This document shows, in pieces, positions 7,801-30,838 of a stretch of 37,479 nt of DNA. Position 1 is the stretch's first letter. Every line of letters starts with the position of its first letter. Under the pieces are notes generated by a model. That model worked only from the letters and a program-made list of their open reading frames with translations. It was not told the DNA's origin and made no database searches. The translations under genes were made by a program, and so were the position numbers. Origin of the DNA: Elusimicrobiaceae bacterium (GTDB taxonomy: Bacteria; Elusimicrobiota; Elusimicrobia; Elusimicrobiales; Elusimicrobiaceae); assembly GCA_017501565.1 (NCBI GenBank), contig JAFVWP010000135.1, positions 1 through 37,479 of the forward strand. Direction: 5' to 3'.

Positions 7801-7885
7801 AGCTTTTTGTATAGAGAAAAAAACATTTTTTCAGATGATTTCTTTTTTAAAATAGTTGTTGACGTAAAAAAAGAATGAAAAAGAG

Positions 7886-7914
7886 TTGACAAGTTGCGCA
7901 AAAGTTGTAAAAAT
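7886..7914 (+). promoter_or_regulatory. Probable sigma-70 type promoter upstream of the giant secreted protein gene
   Basis: A perfect -35 box TTGACA lies at 7886-7891. About 16-17 nt downstream is an A-rich candidate -10 at 7908-7914 (TAAAAAT), preceded by TG. The location, about 115 nt before the start codon at 8031 in a 230-nt gap, is suitable. The -35 is strong and the -10 only partial, so the -10 assignment is tentative. No convincing terminator was seen between 7801 and 7885. Confidence 0.5.
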
Positions 7915-7924
7915 TTAAGAGTAA

Positions 7925-7986
7925 GTACGTCGCGCGCCTTTTTAAAATAATTAAAAATAAAAGGCCCCGGCGGTTTTTAGTCGTAC
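7925..7986 (+). other. Foldable 5' leader of the giant secreted protein gene
   Basis: Nested complementary arms can form one long interrupted hairpin: GTACG 7925-7929 with CGTAC 7982-7986, CGC 7933-7935 with GCG 7970-7972, and GCCTTTT 7936-7942 with AAAAGGC 7959-7965. It lies between the candidate promoter and the start codon and has no terminal T-run, so it is not a normal intrinsic terminator. It matches no riboswitch class that I recognise. Confidence 0.4.
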
Positions 7987-8030
7987 AAAGATTTGCAAAA
8001 TTAAGACGAGAATAGGATATAAAACGAGAT

Positions 8031-11000
8031 ATGACATTTCATCAAATCTTCAAAGTGATCATTGGCAAAGCGGCCCTGGGGGCAGTTTTGCCGTTGTTGT
8101 GTTTGGCGGCTCAGCCCGTCTTTGCCCAATCTGCCGAAGTGCGCTCCATGGGTGTGTATTACGTGGACGGCTCTACGAACATCAATGATGTTTATTGTAA
8201 CTGGGATTTAGCCTCCAAAACCGATACGCAAATTGCCAATGCTTATAAAGGTGGAATCGTCAACGTTGGCGATAAAGAAACGTTAGATCCTTGGCAAACG
8301 TCGGCTTTGATTGAATATGATCAACCTTACCCCGATCCGAAATCTGCCAACAATTACCCGAACCACTGCTTGGGAATGTGTATGGACGTGTATTGTACCA
8401 ACAAGCCCAACGGCGCGGCTACCTATTCTATCTCGTTCCCGATTCAAAATATCCGCTTTGAAATCGCCAAATACTATGGCTCTAAGGATATTAATAATCC
8501 CGACACCGCTCCCGCTGTGCGCACAATTGACATGAGCGTGATGAAAAATAAAATTTATATTGATGGGGCAGCTGTCACTGAAAATGTAGATTTGTCCAAC
8601 TATATGTGCGCGGCCTATTCCTGTTGGGGGTCTGCTTCCCAATTTGTGAATACCCAATCTTGCCCCAACCCGCAATATGAATGTGTATCGAGAGCTTCTT
8701 TGATAAAAAGTGGGTATGATGAAGCAGATCTTTGTAAGGAATTAACTGTTAATCCTGGAAATCTTGATATGTGGGATGCTGAATGGTGGGGACAGATTGT
8801 AGAGCGAATTGATACCGACGCCGACCAAGGCTATTGTTGCCGCCGTTTAGCTGACTCTGAAGGGCAATATAATATTACTCCAAGTGTTTATACTGCATCT
8901 GCGATGTCAAATTCCAAGTTGAAAGGCCAATTAGACGGAAAAAATATTGGAACCGATGGTGCAAAAGAAAATGAAGATTGGGTCTATTGCGGATTTTCCA
9001 CTTCTTGTAAAGAAGACGGCACCAGCGACGATTGTGCCAACGGCCGCGAAAGCTTGTGTATTATCCGCGCTGAAGGCACCGGTAAAGGCTATAATGACCC
9101 CATTCGTTTCTGCGCTCCGTGGGACGGCTCATACGAAATTTTAGGTGAATTTGGCAAAACTAACGGCCAATACGGTGTACGCGGTACCGTGCATACGGAC
9201 TACCCCGGCGACGGCATTGCCGTAGAACAAATCACCATTGACCAAACCTTTACTTATCCGGGCAATAACCAATATCCTATTCAGGTTGACGTAACCAACG
9301 TACATACCGTACGCAGTACGCCCAGTGTGGTGGGCGGTATGGAAGCCGTAGCCGCTTTGCCGTATAATATCCGCTATCGCTTGAGTAAAGATGCGGATGT
9401 CAAAATGCAAATTTTTGACGCTTCTGCCGTCGTACCGACTACTAACCAAGGCGACACCAATATCAGCGATAATGATGCCGAATTGGTCTTGACCCAAGAT
9501 AATGTCGTACGCACTTTGGTGGATTGGAAACCGCGCTTAGGCGAAGGCATCAAAGGCTCCGAAAGCGACAAGCTTATCACCGAAAGCGAAGATTGGGACG
9601 GACGCGATGATTCCGGCCGCTTATTGCCCGCCAACAACTATTTGGTTTCTATTCAAGCCAAGAGCCAAGACGAATGGCCGGGGACCGACTTCTCCCGCGC
9701 TGTAACACGTCAGATTTCTGTGGACCCGTTGAAATTGACGGATATTCAAGTGGAAGGATTGAATAAGCGCTCTACCGCTTATGCTACCATTCACTATGTT
9801 CCTACGGAAAACTCCAATGTTTACTTTAATGTCTATTCCCCGGGAACAACCTTTGAAAGTTTAGATACGCTTGGCTCTGCCCCCACCGGTACGGCTCCGA
9901 CTATTACTAATAATAGCGGCAGCTTGATTTACCAAAGCCAACAACAGCGTTCCCGCGGCTTGAGCTACCCTGATAAATGGGACGGCTTGTGCCACAATGC
10001 AGACGGCTGTGCTATTCCGTATGCCAAAGGGACCAAGTTGCCCTTCTCCGGAGACGTTTTTGACGGAACCGCTGCTTCTTGTACGGCAGGGGAAGGCACC
10101 TTAAGCGGAAACAATTGTGTGGTAACTTATGCCAACGGCGCTCCGTTGCCGGACGGCGATTATGTATATGTATTGTGGGCGGAAATTCCGTACACCGATA
10201 CATACACCAATGCCGCCGGAAAGGTTTACACCGGTGTAAAAACTTTGAAATATAAAATGGGCTTGATCTCTGTGGAACGCGGGTTGGTGGATATTACCAT
10301 TCAGCCGGTCAGCTATTCCACCATCGGCTCCAGCCCGACGGCTTACGGCTTAGATCCTTTCATCTTTAAATATTCTATTGCCCGTGAAGCCAATGTAAAC
10401 GCTTATGTAAAGAACACTGCCGGTGTCATCGTGAAGACTTTGACCGACGAAGGCGGCAATACCAACGTAGCCCAACAAATGAATACTTTGTCTTGGGACG
10501 GACGTGATAATGCCGGACGTATGGTGGGCCCCGGTACCTACATGTTTGTAGTGGAAACCAGAGACCCGATGTTCCCCTTAAGCGTACAAACGCAAGCGAG
10601 CGCTATCTTCCCGGTGGACTTGTACCGCGTGGTGGACGTTACCACTACCGACGTTTACGGCGATAGCGAAGCCCGTGCCACCATCAACTACTATTTATCT
10701 AAGGCGATGAACGTCCAAATTGATGTGTATAATAAGGACGTTGTCATTCCCGCCCAAAATCAAACCGGCACGACCACTACCCAAAATATTACCACCATTC
10801 CGGCTCAGGTAACGGCGGTGGCGGAACTTGCGAACTTGACCGCCTTAAATACGGCTACTACCGGAACCAATACGGCCGGAAATGCCGTGGGCTATAAATA
10901 TGTATATACCCAACCGACGTTAACCGGTGATACTTACAGCTACTACCGCGTGACCAAAAACGTAACTGCTGTGAACGAGACCAACAATACCGAAACCTAT

Positions 11001-12905
11001 CAGGTAACGGAAATCTTGCTCTACAACGTAAAAGTAGTGGCTTGGCCGCCGCGCATCTGCGATAAACAAAGCGATGCTGCTGTATTTACCAACGGCTATG
11101 TTGACCCGGCTAAAAATCCGTCTTGTATTTATGTAAACGATACCACGTTTACCAACTACCCGGCCAATGCGCAAGCGGCTAAATACAACTATACCGAAGG
11201 GGCCCAACAAACCTTAGACGTTCGTTTGCAACCGATCAAAACCTTCAACCGCTCTGCCACCAAAGCCGGAGACGGCGTAAAGATTACCGAAGAATGGGAC
11301 GCGCAATACTTCTACAACCCGACCCCGGTCAGCGTATTGGACGGCGGTAAGAACAGCGTAGAAGCGGTCAACGAGTGTGCCAATCAAACGGATTTGACCC
11401 AATGTCCTTATGAAATGGTACCGGACGGCACCTATCCGTTCTACATTTCTGCTAAAACGGAAGAACCTGTCAACCTGTACTATGACAAACAAACGGCTGT
11501 GCCGAATACGGATGGTGCTGTTGCGCAAACCGGCCTGTATGCTACGGAAAAACCGGTCTACCGCTTAAACGTAACCCGCGGCCCCGTGTATTTCTTGGAC
11601 GGCTCTGTGGCGGTGTACCCCAATGCGCCGCAGTTGTTCAATACTTCTTCCGGCCCGGTTTTTGTACCGCCGTATGAAATCAACTTTGCCATCAGCCGCG
11701 CGGCTACCGTGCAAGTGGCAGTGGTAGCGTTGGAAGACGGCTTATGCACCACGCAAGGCACCACCATGGCTAACGGCACAAACGTATATAGTGCCAAAGC
11801 AGGTGATGTCTGCAAATACTTAAGCACGATGACCATTGTCAATACGCCGAACTTTGACCCTAATATCATTCGCAAAATCTATTGGGACGGCACTGACAAT
11901 AACGGCAAATACGTCCGCAACGGCAATTATGAAGTGCGCTTAACCGCGATTAACTACCCCGATGCCGGATTGTACCAGCCGACCATCAAACAGCTGACTT
12001 TGAACGTAGATTTGTTGAAAGTGTTTGACTTGCCGGAAACGGAATCTTATGCCATCAACGTACGCGGTACGGATATGAAAGTGTCTTACCAAATCTCTGT
12101 ACCGATGAAAGTGGCCATTCAAATCTTCAAACCGGGTACCACCATTTATGACTATCAAAAGGGTACCTTGCGCGATCCGGCCACCGGAAAAGAAGTGCAA
12201 GATATACGTGATGTGTTGGTGAAAACCATTGTCGGTATCCGCCCGTCCACGACCTTGATTGAAGAATTGTGGGACGGCACCGACTATGCCCAACAAGACG
12301 TACCGGACGGCACCTATCCGTTCCGCTTCGTCACGGCGTTGAACACCGCCGATATAGACACCATTACCGGGGAAATTATCCCGGGCGATGATAAGTCCGC
12401 TACCCCTGCGGATTGGAAAATCCAACGGGTGGCCGATACCTATCAATATGTCAACCTGCATAATGCCACGGTGGCTATCGGTGACGGACAATTTGTGTGC
12501 GAAGATTGGGAAAAGACCGTATTCTTCTATCCCAATCCGTTCAAGACCCCGACCGGTACCTTGGAAGTTACCAAACTCCCGGTACCCGGAAAAATGAGCA
12601 TTAAGCTTTATAACTTAGCCGGGGACTTGGTCAGAGAAAAAGGCTTTACCTGTGTAGATGCTAATAATATGAGCGTTGTTATGAACGGCTCCTTAGATTT
12701 GCGCCCCGACAACAGCGTCAGCAACAATGTTTACACCGGCAACATGCCCTCTGTACGCAACGCAGCTTTGAGATGCTTCTGGGATAGAACCAACGACCAT
12801 GGCAAAAAAGTAGCCCGTGGCGTGTACTTTGGATTGGTAGATTTCAGAGCGCAAAACGGCAGACAACACTGCCAAAAGGTCGTAAAAATCTTGATTCCCA
12901 GATAA
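8031..12905 (+). CDS. Giant secreted protein with FlgD-like Ig repeats and a type IX-like C-terminal domain
   Basis: The 1624-residue product has a signal peptide at about 1-33 (ends PVFAQ). The N-terminal region, about 40-370, is Cys-rich (for example CLGMCMDVYC and SYCCRR-type clusters), suggesting disulfides. About seven FlgD-like Ig modules follow, recognised by a W-D-G-x-D-x-x-G core and a later G-x-Y strand, with Trp at residues 522, 650, 822, 1089, 1285, 1414 and 1584. A Thr/Asn-rich linker lies near 900-955. The C-terminus has YPNPF at about 1500, then a YNLAGDLV strand and ARGVYFGLVDF, ending KVVKILIPR, which resembles the C-terminal domains of type IX secretion substrates. The next gene is PorV-like, which supports surface export. 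The likely role is adhesin or surface-layer component, but no enzymatic domain is visible. Start ATG 8031 precedes the signal peptide directly. Confidence 0.85.
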   Translation: MTFHQIFKVIIGKAALGAVLPLLCLAAQPVFAQSAEVRSMGVYYVDGSTNINDVYCNWDLASKTDTQIANAYKGGIVNVGDKETLDPWQTSALIEYDQPYPDPKSANNYPNHCLGMCMDVYCTNKPNGAATYSISFPIQNIRFEIAKYYGSKDINNPDTAPAVRTIDMSVMKNKIYIDGAAVTENVDLSNYMCAAYSCWGSASQFVNTQSCPNPQYECVSRASLIKSGYDEADLCKELTVNPGNLDMWDAEWWGQIVERIDTDADQGYCCRRLADSEGQYNITPSVYTASAMSNSKLKGQLDGKNIGTDGAKENEDWVYCGFSTSCKEDGTSDDCANGRESLCIIRAEGTGKGYNDPIRFCAPWDGSYEILGEFGKTNGQYGVRGTVHTDYPGDGIAVEQITIDQTFTYPGNNQYPIQVDVTNVHTVRSTPSVVGGMEAVAALPYNIRYRLSKDADVKMQIFDASAVVPTTNQGDTNISDNDAELVLTQDNVVRTLVDWKPRLGEGIKGSESDKLITESEDWDGRDDSGRLLPANNYLVSIQAKSQDEWPGTDFSRAVTRQISVDPLKLTDIQVEGLNKRSTAYATIHYVPTENSNVYFNVYSPGTTFESLDTLGSAPTGTAPTITNNSGSLIYQSQQQRSRGLSYPDKWDGLCHNADGCAIPYAKGTKLPFSGDVFDGTAASCTAGEGTLSGNNCVVTYANGAPLPDGDYVYVLWAEIPYTDTYTNAAGKVYTGVKTLKYKMGLISVERGLVDITIQPVSYSTIGSSPTAYGLDPFIFKYSIAREANVNAYVKNTAGVIVKTLTDEGGNTNVAQQMNTLSWDGRDNAGRMVGPGTYMFVVETRDPMFPLSVQTQASAIFPVDLYRVVDVTTTDVYGDSEARATINYYLSKAMNVQIDVYNKDVVIPAQNQTGTTTTQNITTIPAQVTAVAELANLTALNTATTGTNTAGNAVGYKYVYTQPTLTGDTYSYYRVTKNVTAVNETNNTETYQVTEILLYNVKVVAWPPRICDKQSDAAVFTNGYVDPAKNPSCIYVNDTTFTNYPANAQAAKYNYTEGAQQTLDVRLQPIKTFNRSATKAGDGVKITEEWDAQYFYNPTPVSVLDGGKNSVEAVNECANQTDLTQCPYEMVPDGTYPFYISAKTEEPVNLYYDKQTAVPNTDGAVAQTGLYATEKPVYRLNVTRGPVYFLDGSVAVYPNAPQLFNTSSGPVFVPPYEINFAISRAATVQVAVVALEDGLCTTQGTTMANGTNVYSAKAGDVCKYLSTMTIVNTPNFDPNIIRKIYWDGTDNNGKYVRNGNYEVRLTAINYPDAGLYQPTIKQLTLNVDLLKVFDLPETESYAINVRGTDMKVSYQISVPMKVAIQIFKPGTTIYDYQKGTLRDPATGKEVQDIRDVLVKTIVGIRPSTTLIEELWDGTDYAQQDVPDGTYPFRFVTALNTADIDTITGEIIPGDDKSATPADWKIQRVADTYQYVNLHNATVAIGDGQFVCEDWEKTVFFYPNPFKTPTGTLEVTKLPVPGKMSIKLYNLAGDLVREKGFTCVDANNMSVVMNGSLDLRPDNSVSNNVYTGNMPSVRNAALRCFWDRTNDHGKKVARGVYFGLVDFRAQNGRQHCQKVVKILIPR

Positions 12906-12916
12906 ATAGGTAATTT

Positions 12917-13885
12917 ATGAACATCAAATATAGAGTTTTAATAGCTTGTTTAGCCTTGGCTTTGGCGGCTCCTGCCGCCATGGCCTCCACCAATGCCGAT
13001 GCCGGTACCAGCGCCAGCGCATTCTTGAAAATTGACGCCGGTTCCCCGCGTGCCCAAGCATTGGGTAATGCCTACGTATCCGTAGCTGACGGCCCGGAAG
13101 CCTTGTTCTGGAACCCTGCCGGTGCCGCTTCTGCCACCACGCGTGAGATTGAATTTTCCTACTTGGACTATTTGCAAGGTTACAAAGCCCGCACATTGGC
13201 CTACTTGCAACCGATGGGAAAAACCATTATCGGGGTGACGTTCAATTATATGGATATGGACGGCTTTGATTATCGTGACTCTTATGGTCATCAACAACCG
13301 GTAGTAGATAAGCCGGTGCAGAACTTTGTGGGCAGTTTGTCTTTGGCCCGCGGGTTCTTCAACCAAGGTTTACAAATCGGTGCTACGGCTAAATATATCA
13401 ATGAAAAATTGGACACCTATCGCTATACCAACGTAGGTTTTGACGTAGGTGCCAAAGCGCGCCCTTGGCAATGGTTGGGTTTGGGCGGTGCTATTGTAAA
13501 CATCGGTGATAAAGAAGAAATGCCGCGCGGTTGGCGCGTCGGCGGTGATATTAACACCAAATATTGGACCTTGTCCACCGAATATATGAAATATGTAGAT
13601 GACGACGGACGTTTTGGCGTCGGTTTGGAAGTCCATATTCCGGAAGACATCTTGCAAGTGGCCCAATTTGATTTACGTGTGGGTTGGTATGACCGCGAAA
13701 GCACCGGTTACAGCGAGAGCGAAAACTTGAAGAGCTTAGGCTTAGATGCCACTTCCAAAGTATCCTTCGGTTTTGGTATTTACAGCTCTGAATTGTTCGG
13801 TTATGGTGCCAGCATTGACTATGCTGTTACGCCGTTTGGGGCGTTGGGTACTTCCCAACAGATTGCCGTATCGGTACAATTTTAG
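12917..13885 (+). CDS. PorV/PorQ-family outer-membrane beta-barrel protein
   Basis: The 322-residue product has a signal peptide at about 1-23 (ends AAMAS). It then shows the PorV/UPF0164 signature: Gly-Ser-Pro-Arg-Ala-x-Ala-Leu-Gly-Asn-Ala-Tyr, followed by DGPEALFWNPAG. The rest alternates short amphipathic strands and turns as in FadL-like barrels and ends in an aromatic residue (AVSVQF), the typical outer-membrane barrel terminus. In Bacteroidota, PorV is the outer-membrane shuttle of the type IX system and binds C-terminal signals of cargo. Here the gene lies 11 nt after a gene whose product ends in a type IX-like domain, so a cargo-carrier relationship is a reasonable inference. No other type IX component is in the window. 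A Tad pilin gene follows 31 nt later. Confidence 0.85.
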   Translation: MNIKYRVLIACLALALAAPAAMASTNADAGTSASAFLKIDAGSPRAQALGNAYVSVADGPEALFWNPAGAASATTREIEFSYLDYLQGYKARTLAYLQPMGKTIIGVTFNYMDMDGFDYRDSYGHQQPVVDKPVQNFVGSLSLARGFFNQGLQIGATAKYINEKLDTYRYTNVGFDVGAKARPWQWLGLGGAIVNIGDKEEMPRGWRVGGDINTKYWTLSTEYMKYVDDDGRFGVGLEVHIPEDILQVAQFDLRVGWYDRESTGYSESENLKSLGLDATSKVSFGFGIYSSELFGYGASIDYAVTPFGALGTSQQIAVSVQF

Positions 13886-13916: not shown

Positions 13917-14105
13917 ATGAGAAAAGAGTCTAAAGTTTATAAGCTCTTAAAAGACCGCAAAGGTCAAACGGCTGTGGAATATATTATCACGGCGTTTATG
14001 TTATTCGGTGCTTTTTTGGCTTTCTATGCTTTATACTCAAACTTGGTTCCCCAGCAGTTTGACCAAGGAGCCAAACTCATTTTGACGGAATACAATGCAA
14101 ATTAG
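13917..14105 (+). CDS. flp: Flp/Fap-type pilin, first copy
   Basis: The 62-residue product has a basic leader (MRKESKVYKLLKDRK), a prepilin processing site after Gly (KG then QTAVEY), the Glu and Tyr at mature positions 5 and 6 typical of Flp pilins, and a hydrophobic helix IITAFMLFGAFLAFYALY. I chose ATG 13917 because the longer frame from 13746 runs inside the porV-like gene and lacks pilin features. Flp pilins are cleaved by a TadV/CpaA peptidase and polymerised by the Tad machine. The C-terminus is longer and more polar than the second copy, so it may be a minor or modified pilin. It sits between porV and the second flp gene. Confidence 0.88.
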   Translation: MRKESKVYKLLKDRKGQTAVEYIITAFMLFGAFLAFYALYSNLVPQQFDQGAKLILTEYNAN

Positions 14106-14128: not shown

Positions 14129-14356
14129 ATGAAGTTTATTATTGCAATGCAAACCAAATTAAACGCCATGAAAGATGTGGCTTTTAATTGCGTAAGAAAA
14201 AAAGAAGGCCAAAACACCATTGAATACATCATCATGTTGGGTGTAGTAGTAGGTATCGCCTTGTTAGTGGGCGGTTTGGTAAAGAGCATGATGCCTGAAG
14301 TATTCGAAAACGTAAAAGCCAAAATCATTGGCGGTGTAAACAGCACTGCTGAATAA
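14129..14356 (+). CDS. flp: Flp/Fap-type pilin, second copy (probable major pilin)
   Basis: The 75-residue product has a basic leader, a Gly processing site (RKKEG then QNTIEY), the conserved Glu-Tyr, a hydrophobic helix IIMLGVVVGIALLVGGLV and a short amphipathic tail. The ribosome-binding site AGGAGG just upstream is the strongest in the pilin group, which suits a highly made major subunit (inference). The leader of about 26 residues is longer than usual for Flp pilins. It lies 23 nt after the first flp and 20 nt before the tadE gene. Confidence 0.9.
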   Translation: MKFIIAMQTKLNAMKDVAFNCVRKKEGQNTIEYIIMLGVVVGIALLVGGLVKSMMPEVFENVKAKIIGGVNSTAE

Positions 14357-14376: not shown

Positions 14377-14865
14377 ATGAAAATCTTTCGTAGGGAGCGT
14401 GACGGGCAGATAACGGTAGAATTGATGCTTATTTTACCGGTATTGATGTTGATGGTGTTCTTTATCTTGGAATACGGCAACATCGCCTATCACACAATTA
14501 TAGCCAATCACGCTTCCTATGAATTTGCCCGAATCGGAGCTTTAGTAGCCGCTACCAAACCCAGCGGAAATTCTAACTCTTCCCGGGCCAAAAACAAAAT
14601 TAATGCCGCTAAGACAAAAGTTTTTGGGGCAGATGCAGGAAGAATTACCGTAGGTGTAAAAATAGAGTCCACCGGACGCGACCCGATGTATTCCCGTCAT
14701 CATCACGACGATGTGGTGGTAACGGTCATTTACCCGGTACGTTTGGTGTTCCCGGGGACGAGCTGGCTCTTGGCCAGTGACCCCAAAAGTGAAGGTATGC
14801 GTAAAATCAAAGCAGTAACCCGTATGCCGGTAGAAAAGATTTACGCAAGTTCGGACCCGAAATAA
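14377..14865 (+). CDS. tadE: TadE-family pseudopilin
   Basis: The 162-residue product has a short basic leader, a prepilin-type site (RDG then QITVEL) with Glu at mature position 5, a hydrophobic helix MLILPVLMLMVFFILEYGN, and a polar extracytoplasmic domain with AFARIGA-type helix and late beta strands. TadE proteins are minor pseudopilins needed for Flp pilus assembly, processed by the same peptidase as Flp. The helix followed by an invariant-looking Glu-Tyr-Gly segment is characteristic. It directly follows the two Flp genes. A second TadE-like gene lies at 30137. Family confidence is high. Confidence 0.88.
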   Translation: MKIFRRERDGQITVELMLILPVLMLMVFFILEYGNIAYHTIIANHASYEFARIGALVAATKPSGNSNSSRAKNKINAAKTKVFGADAGRITVGVKIESTGRDPMYSRHHHDDVVVTVIYPVRLVFPGTSWLLASDPKSEGMRKIKAVTRMPVEKIYASSDPK

Positions 14866-14925
14866 GTGGCCGATACAAATCAAAATTTGCTTTAATTAAA
14901 CTTGGATTTACATTAAGGAGAGATG

Positions 14926-15678
14926 ATGAAAAAAGGAATACTTCTGCCCGTTGTATTTGCTCTGTTGGCAGCGGCGGTATATATGTGGTTGCTCAACGGG
15001 GAACAAAAAAAGATTAAAGATTCCAAAACTACCAAAATGGTTTTGGTGGCCGATCGTGATATTAAAGAACGCGACGTCATTAAACGCGAGTATTTAAAAC
15101 GTGTTGCCATTCCGGCCGCTTATATCCAAAAAGATGCTTTTATTTGGAATTCTGAATCTGATTTTGCCAAAGTGGACAATGCCATTGCCCGCGTACAGAT
15201 TCCTAAAGGAAACCAACTCTCCAAATATGCGATTACATCTCTTTCTCCTGAAGCGGGTTTGTCCAGCAAAATCCCGGTGGATATGAGAGGTTTTATCATT
15301 ACGGTAGACTCCAACGTGGCCAGCATGGTAAAACCCGATGATAACGTAGACGTTTTGCTTACTTTTGAAGCAAATATGAAAAGCGGCGCCCGCCAAAAAG
15401 TAACGGTGACCCTGTTACAAAACGTAAAAGTATTGGGCGTAGGCTCCAACTTGGGACAAGGCTTAGATGCCAAGGCGGCTGCTGCTATGAGAAACGAAGA
15501 AGAAAATGCCTCTGCCTATACCGACACCAGCGCCTTGAGTTTGGCTTTATCTACGCGTGATGCGCAGTATTTGGCTTTGGCCAAAGAAGAAGGCACCTTA
15601 ACCGTAACCTTGCGTTCTCCGGGTGATTTGACGCGGTTTATGATGGACATTGCAACATTTGAAAAATTATTCCAATAA
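14926..15678 (+). CDS. cpaB: CpaB/RcpC Flp pilus assembly protein
   Basis: The product of about 250 residues has an N-terminal TM anchor (ILLPVVFALLAAAVYMWLL) and an SAF domain at about 38-105 (MVLVADRDIKERDVIKREYL, then VQIPKGNQLSKYAI), followed by the RcpC-type domain with GFIITVD, VKPDDNVDVLLTF and VTVTLLQNVKVLGVG, and late ALSTRDAQYLALAKEEGTLTV. CpaB works in the periplasm next to the secretin in Tad pilus biogenesis. Two ATGs occur in tandem at 14923 and 14926. The AAGGAG at 14915-14920 is better spaced for the second, so I chose 14926. It is 15 nt upstream of the secretin gene. Confidence 0.9.
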   Translation: MKKGILLPVVFALLAAAVYMWLLNGEQKKIKDSKTTKMVLVADRDIKERDVIKREYLKRVAIPAAYIQKDAFIWNSESDFAKVDNAIARVQIPKGNQLSKYAITSLSPEAGLSSKIPVDMRGFIITVDSNVASMVKPDDNVDVLLTFEANMKSGARQKVTVTLLQNVKVLGVGSNLGQGLDAKAAAAMRNEEENASAYTDTSALSLALSTRDAQYLALAKEEGTLTVTLRSPGDLTRFMMDIATFEKLFQ

Positions 15679-15693: not shown

Positions 15694-16428
15694 ATGAAAT
15701 CTACTGCAAAAATAACTTTATTCGTTTTATTGCTGGCTTTGGCGTGCCCTGCCGCCTTTGCCAAAAAGACGCGCCTGGTGGCCGTCAGTGCCGATGTGGT
15801 GGAAATCGGCGGTACTTTGACCTCTGCCAAGGGGTTTGAGTGGAACCAGATTTTTGACTTTGAAGAAGCCAATATCCCCGGTATTTTATCCTTGGGTGAG
15901 TTTGAACGTAAAACCGCCGTGGTAACCCGCTTGCGCTTGTCTGAAACGGAAGGCCGCGCACAGGTGCTTTCCAACCCGAAGATTGTTACCAGCTCCGGTA
16001 ATGCGGCTAAAATTACGGTAGGCGGTAAAGTACCTATACCGGTGGTGAATAACCAAGGCGTCGGCTCTCAATTGGAAGAATATGGTATTTTGCTTAACGT
16101 TTTGCCTACGATTATTCCGGAAAGAGGCAATATTATTGACTTGCAAGTACAGCTTTCCGTTTCTACGGTGGACTATTCCCGCACGGTATCCGTGGGTACG
16201 GCGACGGCTCCGTCTTTTACCAACCGCGATGTGGAAACCCACGTAGAATTAAACAGCGGTGAAACGTTGGTAATCGGCGGTTTAAAAAGCAGCTATCGCA
16301 ACGTCAGCGAAAACCGCGTTCCTTTCTTGGGCAAATTGCCTTTGATCGGTCTGTTGTTTAAATATAAAGATATTACGGAAGAACAACGCTCTCTCTTCTT
16401 ATTTATTACGGTTGAAGTGGTGGAATAA
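15694..16428 (+). CDS. cpaC: Short CpaC/RcpA-like secretin
   Basis: The 244-residue product has a signal peptide at about 1-22 (ACPAAFA) and the secretin core: VLSNPKIVTSSGNAAKITVGGKVPIPV, GILLNVLPTI, an internal V-E-T-H-V-E-L-N-S-G-E-T strand, VIGGLKS and VPFLGKLPLIGLLF near the end. Secretins form the outer-membrane channel for the pilus. Typical CpaC/RcpA proteins are 400 residues or more, with N-terminal BON or N0/N1 domains; here only about 60 residues precede the secretin core. No frameshift or upstream remnant is visible, so the gene appears naturally short. It sits between cpaB and the ATPase gene. Confidence 0.88.
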   Translation: MKSTAKITLFVLLLALACPAAFAKKTRLVAVSADVVEIGGTLTSAKGFEWNQIFDFEEANIPGILSLGEFERKTAVVTRLRLSETEGRAQVLSNPKIVTSSGNAAKITVGGKVPIPVVNNQGVGSQLEEYGILLNVLPTIIPERGNIIDLQVQLSVSTVDYSRTVSVGTATAPSFTNRDVETHVELNSGETLVIGGLKSSYRNVSENRVPFLGKLPLIGLLFKYKDITEEQRSLFLFITVEVVE

Positions 16429-16437
16429 CGAACTCTT

Positions 16438-18699
16438 ATGGCTGAAATTGAAACCCAAAAAACGGAAGCCAAAATTATTGCGCTTAGCAGCCCCAAAGAA
16501 GGTGCTGGCAAAACGACCCTGACCTTAAACTTGGCCTTGGGTTGGGCCGGTATTCAAAAACGACCGGTGCTGATTGTGCCCTTGGATCCGTTGGCCCGCC
16601 AAGAACACAGCTTTTATTTGGATATTAAAAAACCTGTTAGCGTGGCAGATATTTTGCGCACGTTGGGCAATACCAATATCGCTGTGGTAGGGGGGCTGTT
16701 GCGCGGAAAAATATCCATGTCCCAATGGGGGGTGGGTGTTTTGCCGTTAGGGAATACCCGCGCGCAAGTGGCTTCTATCAGCCCTAAAATTTTAATTCCC
16801 ATTCTGTCCCGTCTTTCCCAAACTTTTGATATTTTCTTAGATGTGGACTCCAGCTTTCCGATGCAAGCCTTTGCCTTTGACTTGGCAGACAAAGTGTTTT
16901 GGGTTTCCAATGCTACCCGCACTCATTTGAACTCTACGGTTCAGTTGTTCAATGATTATAAAGAGCAACGCTACCCGATGGACCGCGTGAGCGTTATTTG
17001 TAACCAATACGATATGCCCGGCTCCATTCCTTACGAAGAAGTGGAGAAATTTTACAGCTCCTTAGGCCGCGATATAGACGTTTTCTTGCCTTGGGACGAA
17101 AGCATTATGGCCACTTCTAACCGCAAAGAAGTGGAGATTATTACCAATCCCCAATCCGAGTGGATTAAAGGGTTGCGTTTGGTATTGGCCAAAATCCGCG
17201 ATTTAACTCCGGCAGCTAAAGATTGGACGGCTTCCGTGAGCGATGAAGAATTTACACAAGCGGCCAAAGAAATTTGGAACCCGATTGTGGGTGCTTCCGG
17301 CGGCGGGCCCGGTGAAGAAAGCCATTTAGCCGTTGTGGAAGAAGAAGGCGAAGCCGGAAAAACGAAACTTTCTTTCTGGGACGATTTAAAACAAAAAGTA
17401 CATAAAGACGTGGTGCGCACCTTGGAAATTGAGCGTATCGTGATTAGCGATGAAAGCTCCGCCAGCGCGCAAACCCGCAAACGTGTGGCCGCTATCGTGG
17501 ACGATATTTTGCAAAAACAACCCAATTTGCAATTCTCCCGCGACCAAAGAACGCGTTTCGCTTCGGAATTATTAGACGAAATTTTAGGTTTGGGGCCTTT
17601 GGAAACATTGATGAGAGACCCCAGCGTTACAGAAATTATGGTCAATGCCTTTGACCGCATCTTTATTGAGCAAAAAGGTAAATTGACCCTGACCAAATAT
17701 AAATTTAGAAATAATGAACAGGTAGTACAGGTGATTAAACGTATCGTTTCTCCGTTGGGCCGTCGTATTGACGAATCTGTGCCCTTGGTGGACGCTCGTT
17801 TGAAAGACGGCTCTCGTGTAAACGCCATTATTGCGCCGTTAGCCGTTTCCGGCCCGACGCTTACCATTCGTCGTTTCTCTCAAAAGCCGTTTGGCCCGGC
17901 GGATTATTTCCGCTTTGGTACTATCAGCCCGGAATGTATGGAGTTTTTGGAAAAGTGCGTCCGCATTCGTAAAAATATTATTGTTTGCGGCGGTACCGGT
18001 ACCGGTAAAACCACCTTTTTAAACGCGCTTTCCAGCTATATTTCCAATAATGAACGTATTATCACGGTGGAAGATACGGCGGAATTGCGGTTGCAACAGC
18101 CGCACTGGGTTTCCTTGGAAAGCCGTCCCCCCAACGTGGAAGGAAAAGGGGAAATAACCATTCAAGATTTGGTAAAAAACTGCTTGCGTATGCGTCCGGA
18201 CCGCATTGTAGTAGGGGAATGCCGCGGCGGCGAAGCATTAGACATGTTGCAAGCGATGAATACCGGCCACGAAGGGTCCTTGACCACTATCCACGCCAAT
18301 ACGCCACGTGATGGTCTGTCCCGCTTGGAAGCGATGTGTATGCAAGCCAGCGCGGAATTGCCGGTGTTTGCTATCCGCGAAATGATTTCTTCGGCGGTGA
18401 ATATGATTGTGCAATTATCCCGTTTTTCCGATGGTTCCAGAAAGGTGACCTATATTACCGAAATGCACGGACAAAAGGATAATAAAATCCAATCTACGGA
18501 CTTGTTCCGCTACGTGCAGACCGGGGTAGATGAAAACGGAAAAGTACAAGGTATTTTTGCGCCGACGGGCAATTTGCCTACTTTCTTTAATGATTTTAAA
18601 GCCAAAGGCGTTCCCGTGCCGGAAGATGTATTTACCAAAGGGGCTGTAAAGTTAGATGAAAACGGAGAGCCCATTTTGGACGGATTTACGGGAGCATAA
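16438..18699 (+). CDS. TadZ/CpaE-TadA/CpaF fusion ATPase
   Basis: The 753-residue product joins two Tad ATPases. Residues about 10-255 are a MinD/ParA-like TadZ (CpaE) domain with a deviant Walker A, PKEGAGKTT (Lys20 and Lys25), and a VDSS segment in place of Walker B. Residues about 290-745 are a CpaF/TadA secretion ATPase with Walker A GGTGTGKT at 518-525, TVEDTAEL (Asp box), RMRPDRIVVGECRGGE (Walker B) and TGHEGSLTTIHANT (His box). TadZ positions the apparatus at the membrane and TadA hydrolyses ATP for pilus assembly; usually they are separate genes. All motifs needed for ATP hydrolysis in the TadA half are present. The reading frame is uninterrupted across the junction, around residues 265-330. 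TadB and TadC follow. Confidence 0.92.
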   Translation: MAEIETQKTEAKIIALSSPKEGAGKTTLTLNLALGWAGIQKRPVLIVPLDPLARQEHSFYLDIKKPVSVADILRTLGNTNIAVVGGLLRGKISMSQWGVGVLPLGNTRAQVASISPKILIPILSRLSQTFDIFLDVDSSFPMQAFAFDLADKVFWVSNATRTHLNSTVQLFNDYKEQRYPMDRVSVICNQYDMPGSIPYEEVEKFYSSLGRDIDVFLPWDESIMATSNRKEVEIITNPQSEWIKGLRLVLAKIRDLTPAAKDWTASVSDEEFTQAAKEIWNPIVGASGGGPGEESHLAVVEEEGEAGKTKLSFWDDLKQKVHKDVVRTLEIERIVISDESSASAQTRKRVAAIVDDILQKQPNLQFSRDQRTRFASELLDEILGLGPLETLMRDPSVTEIMVNAFDRIFIEQKGKLTLTKYKFRNNEQVVQVIKRIVSPLGRRIDESVPLVDARLKDGSRVNAIIAPLAVSGPTLTIRRFSQKPFGPADYFRFGTISPECMEFLEKCVRIRKNIIVCGGTGTGKTTFLNALSSYISNNERIITVEDTAELRLQQPHWVSLESRPPNVEGKGEITIQDLVKNCLRMRPDRIVVGECRGGEALDMLQAMNTGHEGSLTTIHANTPRDGLSRLEAMCMQASAELPVFAIREMISSAVNMIVQLSRFSDGSRKVTYITEMHGQKDNKIQSTDLFRYVQTGVDENGKVQGIFAPTGNLPTFFNDFKAKGVPVPEDVFTKGAVKLDENGEPILDGFTGA

Positions 18700-18722
18700 G
18701 CGTTGTGTTTTAAGGAATGGAT

Positions 18723-20351
18723 ATGAAAAAAACATCATTTTTGATTATGGCTTTTATTTTCTTGTTGGGTCTGATGGCTCCGCAAGCTGTTTTTGCGCGC
18801 GCATTGAACCGCCAAGATAAAGAAAAAATAGAATGCGCCAAATTTAAAATGTATGTTTTATCCAGCTTTTTTGATGTGAACCAATCATGGGAAGATAAAT
18901 CAAAATTCGTTTATCCCCGCCAATGCGGCCCTGCGTTAGAAAATAAAAAAATTAAGGTGCCGGAGTGGCTTCCCAAAGAATTGGAAGAAATGAATAATCT
19001 TAAAGTGGTTTATATTCCCAAAGAAGGCACTTTAAGCGAAGCAACCTTGTGGTACCGCACTTTTGCCAACGTGTATGCCTACTTAGACCGCGCCAATAAC
19101 GCCTTGGACCCGGACCAACCGGTGGTTATGCAGCAGCTTTCCCGCAACTACGTCGGCAACCGCATTGCCTTGGTTTCCAATTTGGACCGCTTGAATAAAG
19201 AATTGGTCCGCGGTACGGAACATTATAATATGAAAGACAGCATGCAAGGCCGTGCGCGTGCGATGTTGGCTACTTTGGAAGTTATCAACCAGGAATTTTT
19301 CAGCACGGTGGAATCTTTTGCCAGCCCGGTGAAGCAAAGAGAAGACAAATATCGCAAATCCGTTATGGCGGTGGTTACATTGTCTAACCAGCTGTGGAAT
19401 GAGTTCCGCGCTGCTCCTTTGCCCAACAAAATGCCCTCTGCCGATAAATATAAAACAACGGAAGGGGAAAGATTGTTCAGTACTCTTTTATTGATGTTGG
19501 GCGCAGGCTTAATCGGTGCGGCTGTATATTTATTTTTGGATCAAAAGAGAGAAGAAGCCTTAGATGCGTGGAACCGCTACCGCGAAAAAAGCGTGGCTTG
19601 GGCCGACGATTTTAACCGCCAATTTTTAACCATTGACGTAAAATACATTGTATTTGGTACTTTGGCGGCCTTTGGGTTGTTTGGGTTGTTTATGGGCTTT
19701 AGTGCCGGCGGATTTACAGGAATATTCCTGTTCATTCTCTTTTTGGCTTTTGGGATTGTCGTTTCTGTGCGTATGCCAAAAGTGGTATTGGAACACTTGA
19801 AAAAGAGCCGCGGCCGCAAAATTAATGCCCAGCTGATGGACTCTTTGATTTTGCTTTCTAACTCCTTGCGCTCCGGTATGGATATTGTGCAAGGTTTTGA
19901 ATTGGTCGCGCACGATTTGCAACCGCCTATTTCGGACGAGTTTGGCTTGGTGGTTAAAAACTATCGCTTGGGTACCCCTTTTGAAAAAGCCTTGGAAGGC
20001 TTGGACGAGCGTGTGGACAGCCGTATGCTTTCTTATACCATCAAGGCTATTGTGATTCAACGTCAGGTGGGGGGTAATTTGACGGTTATTTTCTCCCGCT
20101 TGGTGGAAAATATCCGCGAAGAAAGTAAATTGGAAGAAAAATTAGACGCCATGACCGCCCAACAGAAAATTCAAGCCCGCGTGGTGGGGATTATGCCGAT
20201 TATTATGTTAGGCGTTATGTTTATGTTCCGTCCGGACGAAATGTTGTCTTTCTATTGTTCTCTTTTGGGTATAATCGTACTTTTCTGCTGTGCGATATGG
20301 GTAGGTATCGGTATGATGCTCATTCAAAAGATGGGCGAGGTAAAGGTGTAA
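18723..20351 (+). CDS. tadB: TadB-like pilus platform protein with an exported N-terminal domain
   Basis: The product of about 542 residues begins with a signal peptide (LIMAFIFLLGLMAPQAVFA), followed by a mostly alpha-helical exported region at about 25-245 containing two Cys. TM segments follow at about 248-268 and 305-350, then a T2SSF/TadB domain at about 365-500 with MDSLILLSNSLRSGMDIVQGFE and QRQVGGNLTVIFSRL, and closing TM segments. Typical TadB proteins are near 300 residues and lack the exported part. I chose ATG 18723 over 18717 because AAGGA at 18712-18716 is correctly spaced for it and it starts the signal peptide. The N-terminal region matches no family I recognise. TadB and TadC form the inner-membrane platform of the pilus. 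Confidence 0.87.
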   Translation: MKKTSFLIMAFIFLLGLMAPQAVFARALNRQDKEKIECAKFKMYVLSSFFDVNQSWEDKSKFVYPRQCGPALENKKIKVPEWLPKELEEMNNLKVVYIPKEGTLSEATLWYRTFANVYAYLDRANNALDPDQPVVMQQLSRNYVGNRIALVSNLDRLNKELVRGTEHYNMKDSMQGRARAMLATLEVINQEFFSTVESFASPVKQREDKYRKSVMAVVTLSNQLWNEFRAAPLPNKMPSADKYKTTEGERLFSTLLLMLGAGLIGAAVYLFLDQKREEALDAWNRYREKSVAWADDFNRQFLTIDVKYIVFGTLAAFGLFGLFMGFSAGGFTGIFLFILFLAFGIVVSVRMPKVVLEHLKKSRGRKINAQLMDSLILLSNSLRSGMDIVQGFELVAHDLQPPISDEFGLVVKNYRLGTPFEKALEGLDERVDSRMLSYTIKAIVIQRQVGGNLTVIFSRLVENIREESKLEEKLDAMTAQQKIQARVVGIMPIIMLGVMFMFRPDEMLSFYCSLLGIIVLFCCAIWVGIGMMLIQKMGEVKV

Positions 20352-20354: not shown

Positions 20355-21245
20355 ATGAACCAAATGATAGGCGAACTTGTATTGGCTTTTTGCTTGTTTA
20401 TCGGCGGCATCAGTGTCTTTGTGGCAGTGCTTCATTTGTTTATGCCTAAAAAAGACGAAAACCGCATTGTGGACGTAGCGGCCCAACGTTTCAAGTCTTC
20501 TTCCAGCTTTGCCCGCTTACAACCGGAAACCAAATGGGTGGACCGCTTGGCCGTTTTCTGCTTAAATACGTTTAATTTAGAAAAACCTTTAGAATCTATG
20601 CACATGCAGTTGGGTAGCCCGCAAGAGCCCCAACCGGTGGATATTCTGTATTATAAAGTTATTTTTGCTTTGGTAATCCCGGCCGGCTTGATGTTGATTA
20701 CCCAATCTGTCTTTTGGATTATTACCTTGCCTTTCGGTTTTATTTTGCCGGACCTTGTATTTAAGAGCCGTATTCAAAAAAGACAAGGTGAAATTATGGG
20801 CAATTTCTCCGCAACGGTGGACTTGGCCGCGTTGATTATTGAGTCCGGGTTGGACTATTTAACGGCTTTTGAAAGAATTATCAGCATTGCCAAGCATAAA
20901 ACGATTTTGGAAGAAGAATTAGAAAAAATGCTCAATGAAATCAAATTGGGTTATTCCCGCCGCGAGGCGTTGGAACGCTTTGCCAATCGCACCGGAGTAC
21001 AAGAAGTGCGCTCTTTGGTGGGGTTGATTATCCAATCTGATGAATTGGGTACAAGTTTGGTGGACTTGTTGCGCAATTTCTCTACCGATTTGCGCAGCCG
21101 CCGTATGAGCAAGGCCGAAAAGCTGGCCGCACAGGCATCTACCAAAATGTTGTTTCCTTTGTTTATATTTATTTTCCCGACAATTTTCATTCTCATATTG
21201 TCGCCGATGATCAAAGGGCTGCTTTCGCAGGGGCTCAGTTTTTAG
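20355..21245 (+). CDS. tadC: TadC-like pilus platform protein
   Basis: The 296-residue product has TM segments at about 5-28, 97-135 and 270-292 and a T2SSF domain between about 145 and 265 with GNFSATVDLAALIIESGLDYLTAFERI and VGLIIQSDELGTSLVDLLRNFS. This is the TadC pattern and length. It pairs with TadB in the inner-membrane assembly platform that couples the TadA ATPase to the growing pilus. The gene begins 3 nt after tadB, implying translational coupling. All expected features are present. Confidence 0.92.
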   Translation: MNQMIGELVLAFCLFIGGISVFVAVLHLFMPKKDENRIVDVAAQRFKSSSSFARLQPETKWVDRLAVFCLNTFNLEKPLESMHMQLGSPQEPQPVDILYYKVIFALVIPAGLMLITQSVFWIITLPFGFILPDLVFKSRIQKRQGEIMGNFSATVDLAALIIESGLDYLTAFERIISIAKHKTILEEELEKMLNEIKLGYSRREALERFANRTGVQEVRSLVGLIIQSDELGTSLVDLLRNFSTDLRSRRMSKAEKLAAQASTKMLFPLFIFIFPTIFILILSPMIKGLLSQGLSF

Positions 21246-24104: not shown

Positions 24105-25052
24105 ATGAAAAAATTATTAGCTGTTGCTATGGCCTTTGTATTGGCCTATCCGGCTTTTGCCGCCAATAAGGCGAAAACTGCCGCTAAAACCCCCGCCAGA
24201 CCCAGCGTAGAATTTATTGTCATTGAGTCTGACGACTATGCCGCCGGTAAAGTGGATATGCCGATGGCCAATGCGGTAGCCAACTTTTTGGGTGGTGATG
24301 CCAACGTAACCCCGGTTTCTTACCAACAAGCCAAACAGAACCCGGCGTATGCAAATATGGATATGAGCTATTTGCCTTTGTATCTTTTGAAATCTACCCC
24401 GCAATACCGCGAAAAATTGACCCAACATATTTCTGTCGGTCAAGTTTTGGAAAGAGGGGAATATTTGGTTTTCCCGCATTTGTCTAATACCGGTGTTTAC
24501 CAAGATAAAGTAGCCAATCCGGGCGTATTGGAAATTTTTGTTATGTCCCAATGTCCGTTTGGCGCGATGGCCGAAAACTTGGTAATTGATGCGATGAAAG
24601 CGGGCAAATTGCCGGCTGACAAAGTTATCAAATTGCGCTACATCGTAAGCTACAACGAACAAAATGGTTTCCAAAGCTTGCATGGTTCCGGCGAATGGGA
24701 AGAAAACGTACGCCAACTTTTGATTGCCAAATACTATCCCGCCAAATTGTGGAAATATTTGGAAATCCGCAACAAAGATTACCGCTCCAGCCGCTGGGAT
24801 AAAGCGATGGAAGAAGCCGGTATCAACGTCAAAAAAATCACGAAAAAATTTGATACCGAAGGTATTGAACTCTTGAAAAAAGAAGCCGCTTACAGCGATG
24901 AATACGGCATTAATGCTTCTCCTTCTTTCTTGTATGAAGGAAAAGAAAAATTGGATTTCGGTTCTGTATCCCAAAAACCGGGATTTGAATTTATGAATCC
25001 TTCCAATGCCAACCGCGGCGGCGGCCAAGCGGCCCCTGTCGGTAGCTGCTAA
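24105..25052 (+). CDS. Exported thioredoxin-fold (DsbA-like) protein with a single active-site Cys
   Basis: The 315-residue product has a signal peptide at about 1-19 (AYPAFA) and a thioredoxin-fold domain from about 140. The strand-helix VLEIFVMSQCPFG-AMAENL resembles SQCP-x-C motifs of DsbA-like proteins, but the second Cys is Gly (CPFG). The cis-Pro loop is visible as ASPSFL near residue 275. The whole protein has only two Cys: this one and the very last residue (PVGSC), which might act as the missing resolving partner. A plausible role is thiol exchange or chaperoning for Cys-rich surface proteins such as the giant protein at 8031 (inference). It is the last gene before the intrinsic terminator at 25078, preceded by AAGGAG. 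Confidence 0.8.
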   Translation: MKKLLAVAMAFVLAYPAFAANKAKTAAKTPARPSVEFIVIESDDYAAGKVDMPMANAVANFLGGDANVTPVSYQQAKQNPAYANMDMSYLPLYLLKSTPQYREKLTQHISVGQVLERGEYLVFPHLSNTGVYQDKVANPGVLEIFVMSQCPFGAMAENLVIDAMKAGKLPADKVIKLRYIVSYNEQNGFQSLHGSGEWEENVRQLLIAKYYPAKLWKYLEIRNKDYRSSRWDKAMEEAGINVKKITKKFDTEGIELLKKEAAYSDEYGINASPSFLYEGKEKLDFGSVSQKPGFEFMNPSNANRGGGQAAPVGSC

Positions 25053-25077
25053 CACCAAAATTTCTACTCAAAACAGG

Positions 25078-25112
25078 GCGGGGGCTAAGAGCAAATCTGG
25101 GCCCCCGCTTTT
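25078..25112 (+). terminator. Rho-independent terminator at the end of the Tad operon
   Basis: GCGGGGGC (25078-25085) pairs perfectly with GCCCCCGC (25101-25108) around a 15-nt loop, followed by TTTT (25109-25112). It lies 25 nt after the stop of the thioredoxin-fold gene and ends 13 nt before the next start codon. The stem is very GC-rich compared with the surroundings; the T-run is short. Confidence 0.85.
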
Positions 25113-25125
25113 AAGAAAAAAATTT

Positions 25126-27009
25126 ATGAAATTAAGAAAGAACGGATTATTCACCCAAGCCTTGCTTGCTTTGACCTTTGTATCACTTGTGCCGGTGCTT
25201 TTAATTGTGTGGCACGTGATGCGGGCGGATAGCCGTGTCTTGCAAAGTGAAATCTTAGACCGCCAGCGCATCATGGCAGACCAAATAGGCAGTATTGTGG
25301 CTGATGTGGTGGAGCGGGAAGTACAATTTTTTTCGGTATTTACGGATTTGCATAACGATTTTACGGACCATCACTATATCAACCAACAGGATATTGAATA
25401 TTTACGTCTTAAAAACCCTTCCATTACCCATATTTCCGTTTTAAATAATAAAGGCCGTCAGCTTTTTCATTCCAGCGATCAAAACAGCCGTTTTACATAC
25501 GCGCCGGAGTTGGCCAATATCTTGAAAACTTGCGTCGGACAAGGCAAAGAATATGTAGGCTCTGTCAGCCGCAACAGAGGCCGCTTATTGGCTTTAATGG
25601 CCTTTCCTATCCGTGAGGCAACAGATCCCCAAAAAGTAAGCGGTGTTTTATTGGCGGAAATGGATTTGGCCCAACTCGGTAAAGATTTAAGCAAAGTTTA
25701 TAATGAAGATTTTTCAGTAGCTATTTTATCCGGCGATAACGGATTGATTTCTTATTCCGGCGTGCCGGGCGGTTTGGCTTTGCAAGATAACAATTTATTA
25801 AAGGCAAAAATAGACGAAATAGAAAAACTTTTAGCGGGTAAAGATAGCGCGATTATTTCTTTGCCCGATCAAGACGAGCTGTTGGTCAGCCGCGTGAAGG
25901 TGCCCTCTTTGGGGTGGTTTGTTTATGTTTATCAGCAAGCCAACACCGGTCATAAGCTGTTTATGGAAAGTACCTTTCATTCCCGTTGGGATATGTTGTG
26001 GATTATGTCAGCGCTGGCGGGGTTTGTTGTTTTGGTGGCCTATTTGGTTATTCGCCCCATCGTGCGTCCGGTACAGCGTTTAACGGAAGTAGCCGTAAAA
26101 TTTGAGCGGGAAAAGGGATATTTGCCTACTGAGTCTGAATTGATTATTCCCAATAATGAAATCGGCGAATTGCAACGGGTGTTTTTGCACATGGCGCGTT
26201 CTTTGGTGGAGCAAAAAAATGAGATTTTAGCCGCACAGAAAGAATTGGGTCTGATGAATAAAGATTTGGAATTGCGCGTGCAAGAACGTACGGCCGAATT
26301 AAAAGCGGCTACGGACGAGTTGGTAAAGTCCGAGCAATTGGCCGCTATCGGTCAAATGGCCTCTATCATCAGCCACGAAATCCGTAATCCGCTTGCGGTT
26401 ATCAGCAATGCCACGCGCCTGATTAAGACCATTACCCCGCCGACCGACCCGAAATTAATCAAGCAATTTTCCATCATTGAAGCGGAAATCAAACAGGCCA
26501 ACAGCATCATCAGTGAAGTGTTGGGCTTTGCCCGTAGCCGCGAACTGATGCTGAGTATGATTGATTTAAACAGCTATGTGCATGACATTGTGGCTTCTTA
26601 TCCTGCCGGCCCCGAAGTGCGCCTGGTGGAAGAATTGGACCAAGAAAGTGTGCGCTTAAAAATTGATGCCGAAGAAATCAAACAAGCCTTGCGCAACTTG
26701 CTGTCCAACGCTTGCGAAGCCACCCCCAGCCACGGCAGTGTGCGGGTGGGAACGTTGGTGGGCAAAAAAGCGGTATGTATTTATATAGAAGACGAAGGCC
26801 CCGGCATTAGCCCTGAAATGAAAGAAAAAATATTCTCTCCATTTTTTACTACCAAAGCCCGCGGTACGGGGCTTGGGTTGGCCGTTGTGCATAAGGCGGT
26901 CAAAAGACATAAAGGCAAAATTTTTATTCATAGCGAAGAAGGCAAAGGCACTTGCTTTGCTATTTATTTAAGAGTTTACAAGAAAACCGGAGATACAAAG
27001 TATGACTGA
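25126..27009 (+). CDS. Membrane sensor histidine kinase (Cache-like sensor, HAMP)
   Basis: The product of about 627 residues has TM1 at about 10-30, an extracytoplasmic Cache-like sensor at about 35-290, TM2 at about 290-315 and a HAMP domain (RPIVRPVQRLTEVAVKF to NEIGELQRVF). A coiled coil precedes the HisKA domain with the phospho-accepting His417 in SHEIRNPLAV. The ATPase domain has the N box NLLSNACEATP, G1 DEGPGISP, F box FSPFFTT and G2 GTGLGLAVV. I chose ATG 25126; the upstream frame from 25006 lies inside the terminator and the previous gene. The ribosome-binding site is weak. It probably phosphorylates the REC domains encoded next. It shares its genomic position with the Tad genes, suggesting control of piliation. 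Confidence 0.92.
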   Translation: MKLRKNGLFTQALLALTFVSLVPVLLIVWHVMRADSRVLQSEILDRQRIMADQIGSIVADVVEREVQFFSVFTDLHNDFTDHHYINQQDIEYLRLKNPSITHISVLNNKGRQLFHSSDQNSRFTYAPELANILKTCVGQGKEYVGSVSRNRGRLLALMAFPIREATDPQKVSGVLLAEMDLAQLGKDLSKVYNEDFSVAILSGDNGLISYSGVPGGLALQDNNLLKAKIDEIEKLLAGKDSAIISLPDQDELLVSRVKVPSLGWFVYVYQQANTGHKLFMESTFHSRWDMLWIMSALAGFVVLVAYLVIRPIVRPVQRLTEVAVKFEREKGYLPTESELIIPNNEIGELQRVFLHMARSLVEQKNEILAAQKELGLMNKDLELRVQERTAELKAATDELVKSEQLAAIGQMASIISHEIRNPLAVISNATRLIKTITPPTDPKLIKQFSIIEAEIKQANSIISEVLGFARSRELMLSMIDLNSYVHDIVASYPAGPEVRLVEELDQESVRLKIDAEEIKQALRNLLSNACEATPSHGSVRVGTLVGKKAVCIYIEDEGPGISPEMKEKIFSPFFTTKARGTGLGLAVVHKAVKRHKGKIFIHSEEGKGTCFAIYLRVYKKTGDTKYD

Positions 27010-27013
27010 GTAA

Positions 27014-28123: not shown

Positions 28124-28149
28124 TTTGAAATTCTACGGGAGCGAACTAC

Positions 28150-30676: not shown

Positions 30677-30695
30677 TGGTTTTGTAAAAAAGGGC

Positions 30696-30724: not shown

Positions 30725-30731
30725 GATAGTA

Positions 30732-30792: not shown

Positions 30793-30838
30793 GGGTCAGC
30801 AAGAGTGAATTTTTATATATGTATACAGGGAGCGTCTT

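Follow-up and report, generated by a model that had tools for sequence, protein, structure and literature searches.

Type IX secretion was described in a phylum that lies far from Elusimicrobiota. In the sections available to us, published accounts place the type IX secretion system (T9SS) in Bacteroidota and their relatives or in the Fibrobacterota, Chlorobiota and Bacteroidota (FCB) group only (PMC4793230, PMC7323717, PMC11285876), and one of them adds that T9SS genes are absent outside the FCB group (PMC11285876). Excerpts of the same literature describe a functional lysine conserved in type A C-terminal domains (CTDs; PMC10994853), a conserved lysine in strand beta-7 of the CTD (PMC11285876) and, in Flavobacterium johnsoniae, a CTD that binds the loops of PorV within SprA and whose release requires motor energy (PMC10994853). 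Tight adherence (Tad) systems are noted in Elusimicrobia in an extract of a further study (PMC6668835), and the open-access literature, as far as its excerpts extend, yielded no publication that links T9SS to Elusimicrobiota or T9SS cargo to Tad pili, which is not proof that none exists. Here we consider a 37,479-nucleotide (nt) stretch of DNA from an Elusimicrobiaceae bacterium (assembly GCA_017501565.1, contig JAFVWP010000135.1, positions 1 to 37,479; hereafter the window), in which genes for a large secreted protein (the cargo) and a PorV-like outer-membrane barrel (the carrier) stand directly in front of a Tad pilus locus. The interpretation that we favour, and hold to be reasonably probable, is that a type IX-like route, in reduced form, mainly serves one variable surface protein, which acts alongside the Tad pilus and is probably an adhesin. 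This view rests on the homology of a translocon and the carrier to SprA and PorV, on the resemblance of the cargo CTD to a sorting domain, on a conserved operon and on the co-occurrence of cargo and Tad genes.

The cargo gene (8031..12905; this and the other window features given with two dots are on the + strand) encodes a 1624-residue protein made up of a variable N-terminal domain, FlgD-like immunoglobulin (Ig) repeats and a CTD, with orthologues in 35 loci. The C-terminus of its open reading frame (ORF) carries FFYPNPF...GVYF...KVVKILIPR, bearing out the YPNPF-type terminus of an earlier reading of the window from its letters (the original prediction). The porV-like gene (12917..13885) begins 11 nt downstream and specifies a 322-residue outer-membrane barrel with 14 predicted strands and a terminal Phe; the first Flp-like pilin gene follows after 31 nt, at 13917, at the distance originally given. 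Both cargo and carrier start with what reads by eye as a Sec-type signal peptide. Named genomes with cargo homologues are labelled Elusimicrobium, Elusimicrobiales, Elusimicrobiaceae, Elusimicrobia, Candidatus Avelusimicrobium or uncultured bacterium, and many derive from rumen, colon or rectum.

Assignment of the barrel to the PorV family, also proposed at the outset, is borne out by the NCBIfam model PorV_fam (2.3e-23, 83.3 bits, with a curated cut-off of 90) and by a profile of 29 barrel proteins drawn from across families, which retrieved F. johnsoniae PorV (6h3i_F, 6.7e-12) from the PDB, the next match standing at E=2 and no significant match falling on FadL. A profile confined to the family missed PorV because its members are too alike. 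The UPF0164 model gave 16.9 bits on the barrel (cut-off 21.4). For the structure model of the barrel, Foldseek ranks two T9SS PorV chains first (E=4.7e-9 and 1.6e-8). On computational grounds, then, the carrier is a homologue of PorV. Two genomes of one family (G130 and G134, 2.2-2.3 Mb) hold 10 and 17 PorV_fam matches, respectively, against two in the source genome, which is a large expansion of carriers.

The source genome (1.47 Mb in 141 contigs, 91.8% complete, the window being contig 135) also encodes a SprA/Sov homologue (G000:C4:15334-20754) of 1806 residues that has a signal peptide and ends in Phe, scoring 114.4 bits to TIGR04189, whose curated cut-off is 200. Of 149 phylum genomes, 129 have a match to this model, the source genome among them, as do 71/71 of the window's class; none of the matches is above the curated cut-off. 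All 22 full-length SprA-like proteins match it, measure 1725-1942 residues and end in Phe, and a profile built from them, spanning many families, matched F. johnsoniae SprA in the PDB at E=2e-37 as the sole family, in three significant stretches of preserved order; a profile of six close relatives did not reach SprA. These comparisons identify the translocon, by computation, as homologous to SprA, and its presence in so many genomes of another phylum implies that the type IX system is older or more mobile than has been stated. The possibility that the locus was a false lead, with no type IX parts at all, was rejected on the presence of this homologue. The gene lies apart from the cargo operon and is divergent from two genes read by eye as lptF and lptG (L044:6995-14755); in five other phylum genomes examined a divergent pair of about 360-410 residues, named by position, likewise sits beside the sov-like gene.

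The CTD itself (12516..12902; YPNPF ... GVYF ... KVVKILIP) is type-A-like. Alignment shows the C-terminal ~130 residues to be the best conserved end of the cargo, and 18/18 rows share the last-strand Lys (alignment position 142). Matches of the window CTD to T9SS models are weak (PorZ 1.2e-5, TIGR04183 0.001, PorU 0.001), and among the four fragments of orthologues in other families three reach the TIGR04183 cut-off of 23 bits (23.2, 29 and 24) and one falls below it (21.2). The CTD may be said to resemble, weakly, the T9SS type A sorting domain. Within the window's genus a CTD profile finds a single match in 19/21 genomes and two in the remaining 2, where the matches are cut short, so that the CTD repertoire there is essentially that of one protein; matches in other families of the phylum are many and weaker, numbering up to 22 in one genome (G012).

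The arrangement seen in the window is a fixture of the family. Thirty-five loci were counted, six of which end within the cargo gene and were set aside (L019, L020, L022, L027, L028, L030), and in 29/29 evaluable Elusimicrobiaceae loci cargo, porV, flpA, flpB, tadE and rcpC follow one another on one strand, with secretin and tadA next wherever the contig extends. The cargo-porV gap spans 3-246 nt (median 14) and that between porV and flpA 2-41 nt (median 3). A second set of 20 regions had the order in 18/18 usable cases; the contig of L062 stops after porV, and L074, chosen in error on a weak CTD match, was excluded from the counts, the true locus of that genome being L093. Among a further 30 regions the order recurs in L093 and L095-L097 (L097 with a different small-gene order) and, from porV onward, in L105. 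On top of the 29, these later regions give 22 loci with the set, across families f1, f2, f5, f7 and f8, and the order is thereby known from four families of the class besides Elusimicrobiaceae. Six loci (L064, L065, L071, L093, L095, L097) have a 4-nt overlap between cargo and porV. Adjacency of cargo, porV and Tad genes is thus far above chance, the operon conservation that had been called for as a check is present, and a chance meeting of neighbours was rejected on the conserved order. Stray rcpC genes without the locus occur in G084 (L103 and L104).

Whether the set forms one transcript, as first suggested, can be judged in part. A scan that was not clearly over shuffles shows no conspicuous terminator between the units, and cargo, porV and Tad genes are on that account likely to be transcribed together. 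The stretch before the cargo gene (7801..8030) is the sole long gap from the GGDEF gene to tadC and contains a promoter-like site (7886-7914, TTGACA-17-AAAAAT preceded by TG); this site is weak, since the consensus scan gave 19 sites against 22.6 in shuffles.

Immediate porV-flp adjacency throughout the phylum was rejected, being found in 0/22 Tad loci outside the class (L076-L092, L098-L102). In three of those loci (L078, L080, L083) a porV homologue shares the strand of rcpC and lies some 9-10 kb upstream of it, and in two of these (L078 and L080, families f11 and f13) a CTD-like protein accompanies it. The association of cargo and carrier with Tad may predate the class.

Co-occurrence was assessed in 70 class genomes searched for both RcpC and the cargo core (cargo-core threshold 1e-5). 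RcpC was found in 65, every one of which has a cargo-core match (65/65), four of these being weak (G013, G047, G106, G069). The five genomes without RcpC comprise G082, with cargo on a contig that stops after porV, and G032, G053, G102 and G124, which have no cargo and all encode SprA. Four Tad-less genomes thus keep SprA and lack the cargo, which implies that within the class the cargo tracks this Tad locus and not SprA; as the four belong to just three families (f3, f4, f9), the independent events are few. Membership of SprA in the Tad system was rejected, SprA also being present in Tad-less genomes.

The N-terminal region of the cargo (residues 34-350, 8130..9080) is Cys-rich, and column conservation and mosaic paralogues attest to its variability, the lowest conservation among orthologues of the family falling at residues 201-350. 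Its structure model is poor (predicted local distance difference test (pLDDT) 55, predicted template modelling score (pTM) 0.44), and a fold search with that model gave no match at E<=0.001. A cargo-core search found more than one N-terminal core in five genomes (G003, G025, G078, G090, G110). Copies in G003 stand in tandem (L066:4764-13210) and are identical beyond about residue 50; those of G078 (L019/L020) and G090 (L027/L028) alternate runs of 50/50 identity with strongly diverged blocks; and G025 (L122-L124) has three N-terminal copies sharing identical blocks close to contig ends. Extra copies are often located at contig ends. They look like the products of gene conversion or like variable alleles, and such a mosaic pattern, together with a hypervariable N-terminus, suits an exposed, diversifying surface protein; it also fits an adhesin, a role that is itself a guess. 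Between the two ends, the FlgD_ig model matches the protein as a whole at E=1.3e-18. Seven repeats had been proposed, and W-D motif sites do number seven (residues 522, 650, 822, 1089, 1285, 1414 and 1584) provided that the last, which is the CTD, is counted; Pfam scores just 2 stretches individually.

Several results weigh against a type IX-like route coupled to the pilus. The window CTD reaches 19.0 bits to TIGR04183, short of the curated 23; PF18962 has no match in the source genome at E<=0.001; a CTD profile searched against the PDB did not find a solved T9SS CTD; and single-protein PDB searches with the cargo, the PorV-like and the SprA-like proteins, as well as profiles of close relatives, recovered no T9SS chain. 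The AlphaFold2 model of the barrel has 14 strands at low confidence (pLDDT 56.8, pTM 0.62), and FadL-type channels tie with PorV on it (Z about 20-23), sequence identity over the alignment being 19-20% for PorV and 11-16% for FadL-type rows. In one RcpC-bearing genome of the class, G069, the Tad locus is of another kind and lacks the orthologous cargo-porV pair (L094, family f6). Finally, GldL (0/60 genomes), GldM (0/99), GldN (0/99) and the C25 sortase (0/60) gave no match, and the control genomes were silent too, for which reason their absence is unproven. The proposed link to type IX secretion holds for the SprA/Sov and PorV homologues in the genome; a full system is not supported, since PorL, PorM, PorN and the sortase went undetected. 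The full PorU model matched in 65/99 genomes, above cut-off in none and in the source genome not at all, the matches listed covering model positions 861-1095, its C-terminal part; PorP-family carriers matched in 41/99 phylum genomes, again above cut-off in none and not in the source genome. A set with its motor genes undetected raises the question of its power source.

The route we envisage would begin with Sec, which would carry the 1624-residue protein into the periplasm, where the PorV-like barrel of the next gene, docked at a SprA/Sov-like translocon whose gene lies at another site in the genome, would bind the CTD. The cargo would then reach the cell surface, be retained there by PorV or the outer membrane and act with the Tad pilus that this operon also encodes; most likely it would be an adhesin, a long rod of Ig repeats whose variable tip aids the grip on gut surfaces. 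Export via SprA and PorV, taken alone, seems to us highly probable; surface display, pilus coupling and adhesion would be later steps, and the energy would come from something other than GldL/GldM. A bolder version, which we consider unlikely, would have an independent Elusimicrobiota branch of type IX secretion dispense with the rotary motor of GldL and GldM and with the C25 sortase and, in the gut lineage, serve essentially one client, in whose export and display the Tad machine would physically cooperate; extension or retraction of the pilus may even pull the PorV-cargo complex off SprA, for which Flavobacterium requires the motor.

A plainer account, possible if on the improbable side, would make the cargo a type IX-like surface protein of the ordinary sort. 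One promoter would serve it and the Tad genes so that all are expressed together in gut attachment, and the cargo would make no contact with the pilus. Operon neighbours need not bind one another, SprA in Tad-less genomes makes the export route independent of Tad, and one genome has an unlinked second cargo copy beside other genes (L019). Yet order and near-zero gaps have been retained in at least five families despite the divergence of the rest of the cargo, and the four class genomes that have SprA without Tad have no cargo, both of which tell against this account.

It is also conceivable, and to our minds quite doubtful, that the pair belongs to Tad assembly and is no secreted cargo with its carrier: the Ig-repeat protein would serve as a scaffold in the periplasm or as an accessory to the secretin, and the barrel as a stabiliser or a channel of the FadL type. 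FlgD, an assembly scaffold, also has FlgD-like repeats, the type IX motor and sortase were not found, and by Z the barrel aligns with FadL-type channels as well as with PorV. Against this, the deep profile finds PorV and no FadL, every class genome has SprA, the CTD matches sorting-domain models, and a hypervariable, mosaic-duplicated N-terminus suits an exposed protein better than a scaffold. Very improbable indeed is the suggestion that the SprA-like protein exports other things and that the CTD and PorV pair is a relic or the partner of another outer-membrane machine such as the beta-barrel assembly machinery (BAM): FadL-like subunits of Bacteroidota BAM complexes (9n2d_B, 9hjm_F, 9hiv_F) do align with the barrel and the sov gene is remote from the operon beside its lptF/lptG-like neighbours, but T9SS genes of Bacteroidota can also be scattered, with four components as loners in the model in the accessible part of PMC4793230, and the CTD, with its invariant Lys, is the cargo's best conserved end.

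The pilus locus that follows the pair opens with two Flp-type pilins recognised from their sequence and conserved position, flpA (13917..14105; class III signal E=0.045, weak) and flpB (14129..14356; Class_IIIsignal E=0.001 and Flp1_like E=0.016, both under cut-off). It continues, over cut-off, with a TadE-like minor pilin (14377..14865; PF07811, 44.8 bits), RcpC/CpaB (14923..15678; PF16976, 69.2 bits) and a short RcpA-like secretin (15694..16428; PF00263, 142 bits). A 753-residue TadZ-TadA fusion (16438..18699) joins a MinD/ParA-like domain (PF01656, 33.9 bits) to a T2SSE ATPase (PF00437, 213.5 bits, over cut-off), and T2SSF proteins resembling TadB (18717..20351; PF00482, 62 bits) and TadC (20355..21245; PF00482, 59 bits), both over cut-off, complete the run. 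Pfam results for the scanned window ORFs include no prepilin peptidase (TadV/CpaA), for which no genome-wide search was made.

Around this core the window is more heterogeneous. Upstream of the cargo gene, a Pfam scan of the ORFs places genes for an S41 protease, TsaD, a solute-binding protein and a GGDEF protein. A secreted protein without a Pfam match at 24105-25052 has, by eye, a thioredoxin-like look and an MSQCPFGA motif. Between the Tad genes and a second TadE-like cluster, positions 25006-28833 encode a histidine kinase (Cache, HAMP), a response regulator-kinase hybrid and a LuxR-type regulator, for which control of the pilus locus is possible. The second cluster (29022-37401) includes a TadE-like protein at 30137-30676, slightly below the PF07811 cut-off. 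It also encodes several large proteins of low complexity, membrane-bound or secreted, none of them with a convincing Pfam match.

Set against the T9SS of Bacteroidota, the Elusimicrobiaceae locus and its genome share homologues of SprA and PorV and a CTD with a YPNP start, a GVYF motif and a last-strand Lys; they differ in a host outside the FCB group, in the undetected GldL/M/N and C25 protease, in a repertoire of nearly a single client within the window's genus, and in the placing of carrier and client inside a pilus operon. Another parallel is offered by PorP/SprF and type B substrates in F. johnsoniae, where, in the available part of the account, a dedicated barrel gene likewise adjoins that of its client (PMC12618676); unlike those pairs, the present one combines a PorV-type carrier with a type-A-like CTD and is followed by a whole Tad locus. 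What ties the cargo to the FlgD Ig-like domain is the match of its repeats to FlgD_ig, although the cargo is a 1624-residue secreted repeat protein and no hook cap, and its matches span single repeats. A conserved operon of type IX-like client, carrier and Tad pilus suggests cooperation between two outer-membrane machines without common origin. Like other Tad (Flp, type IVc) pilus loci, this one gathers Flp pilins, TadE, RcpC/CpaB, secretin, TadA, TadB and TadC in one run; unlike the usual Tad locus, it has TadZ fused to TadA, a short secretin and, in front of them all, a type IX-like client and its carrier.

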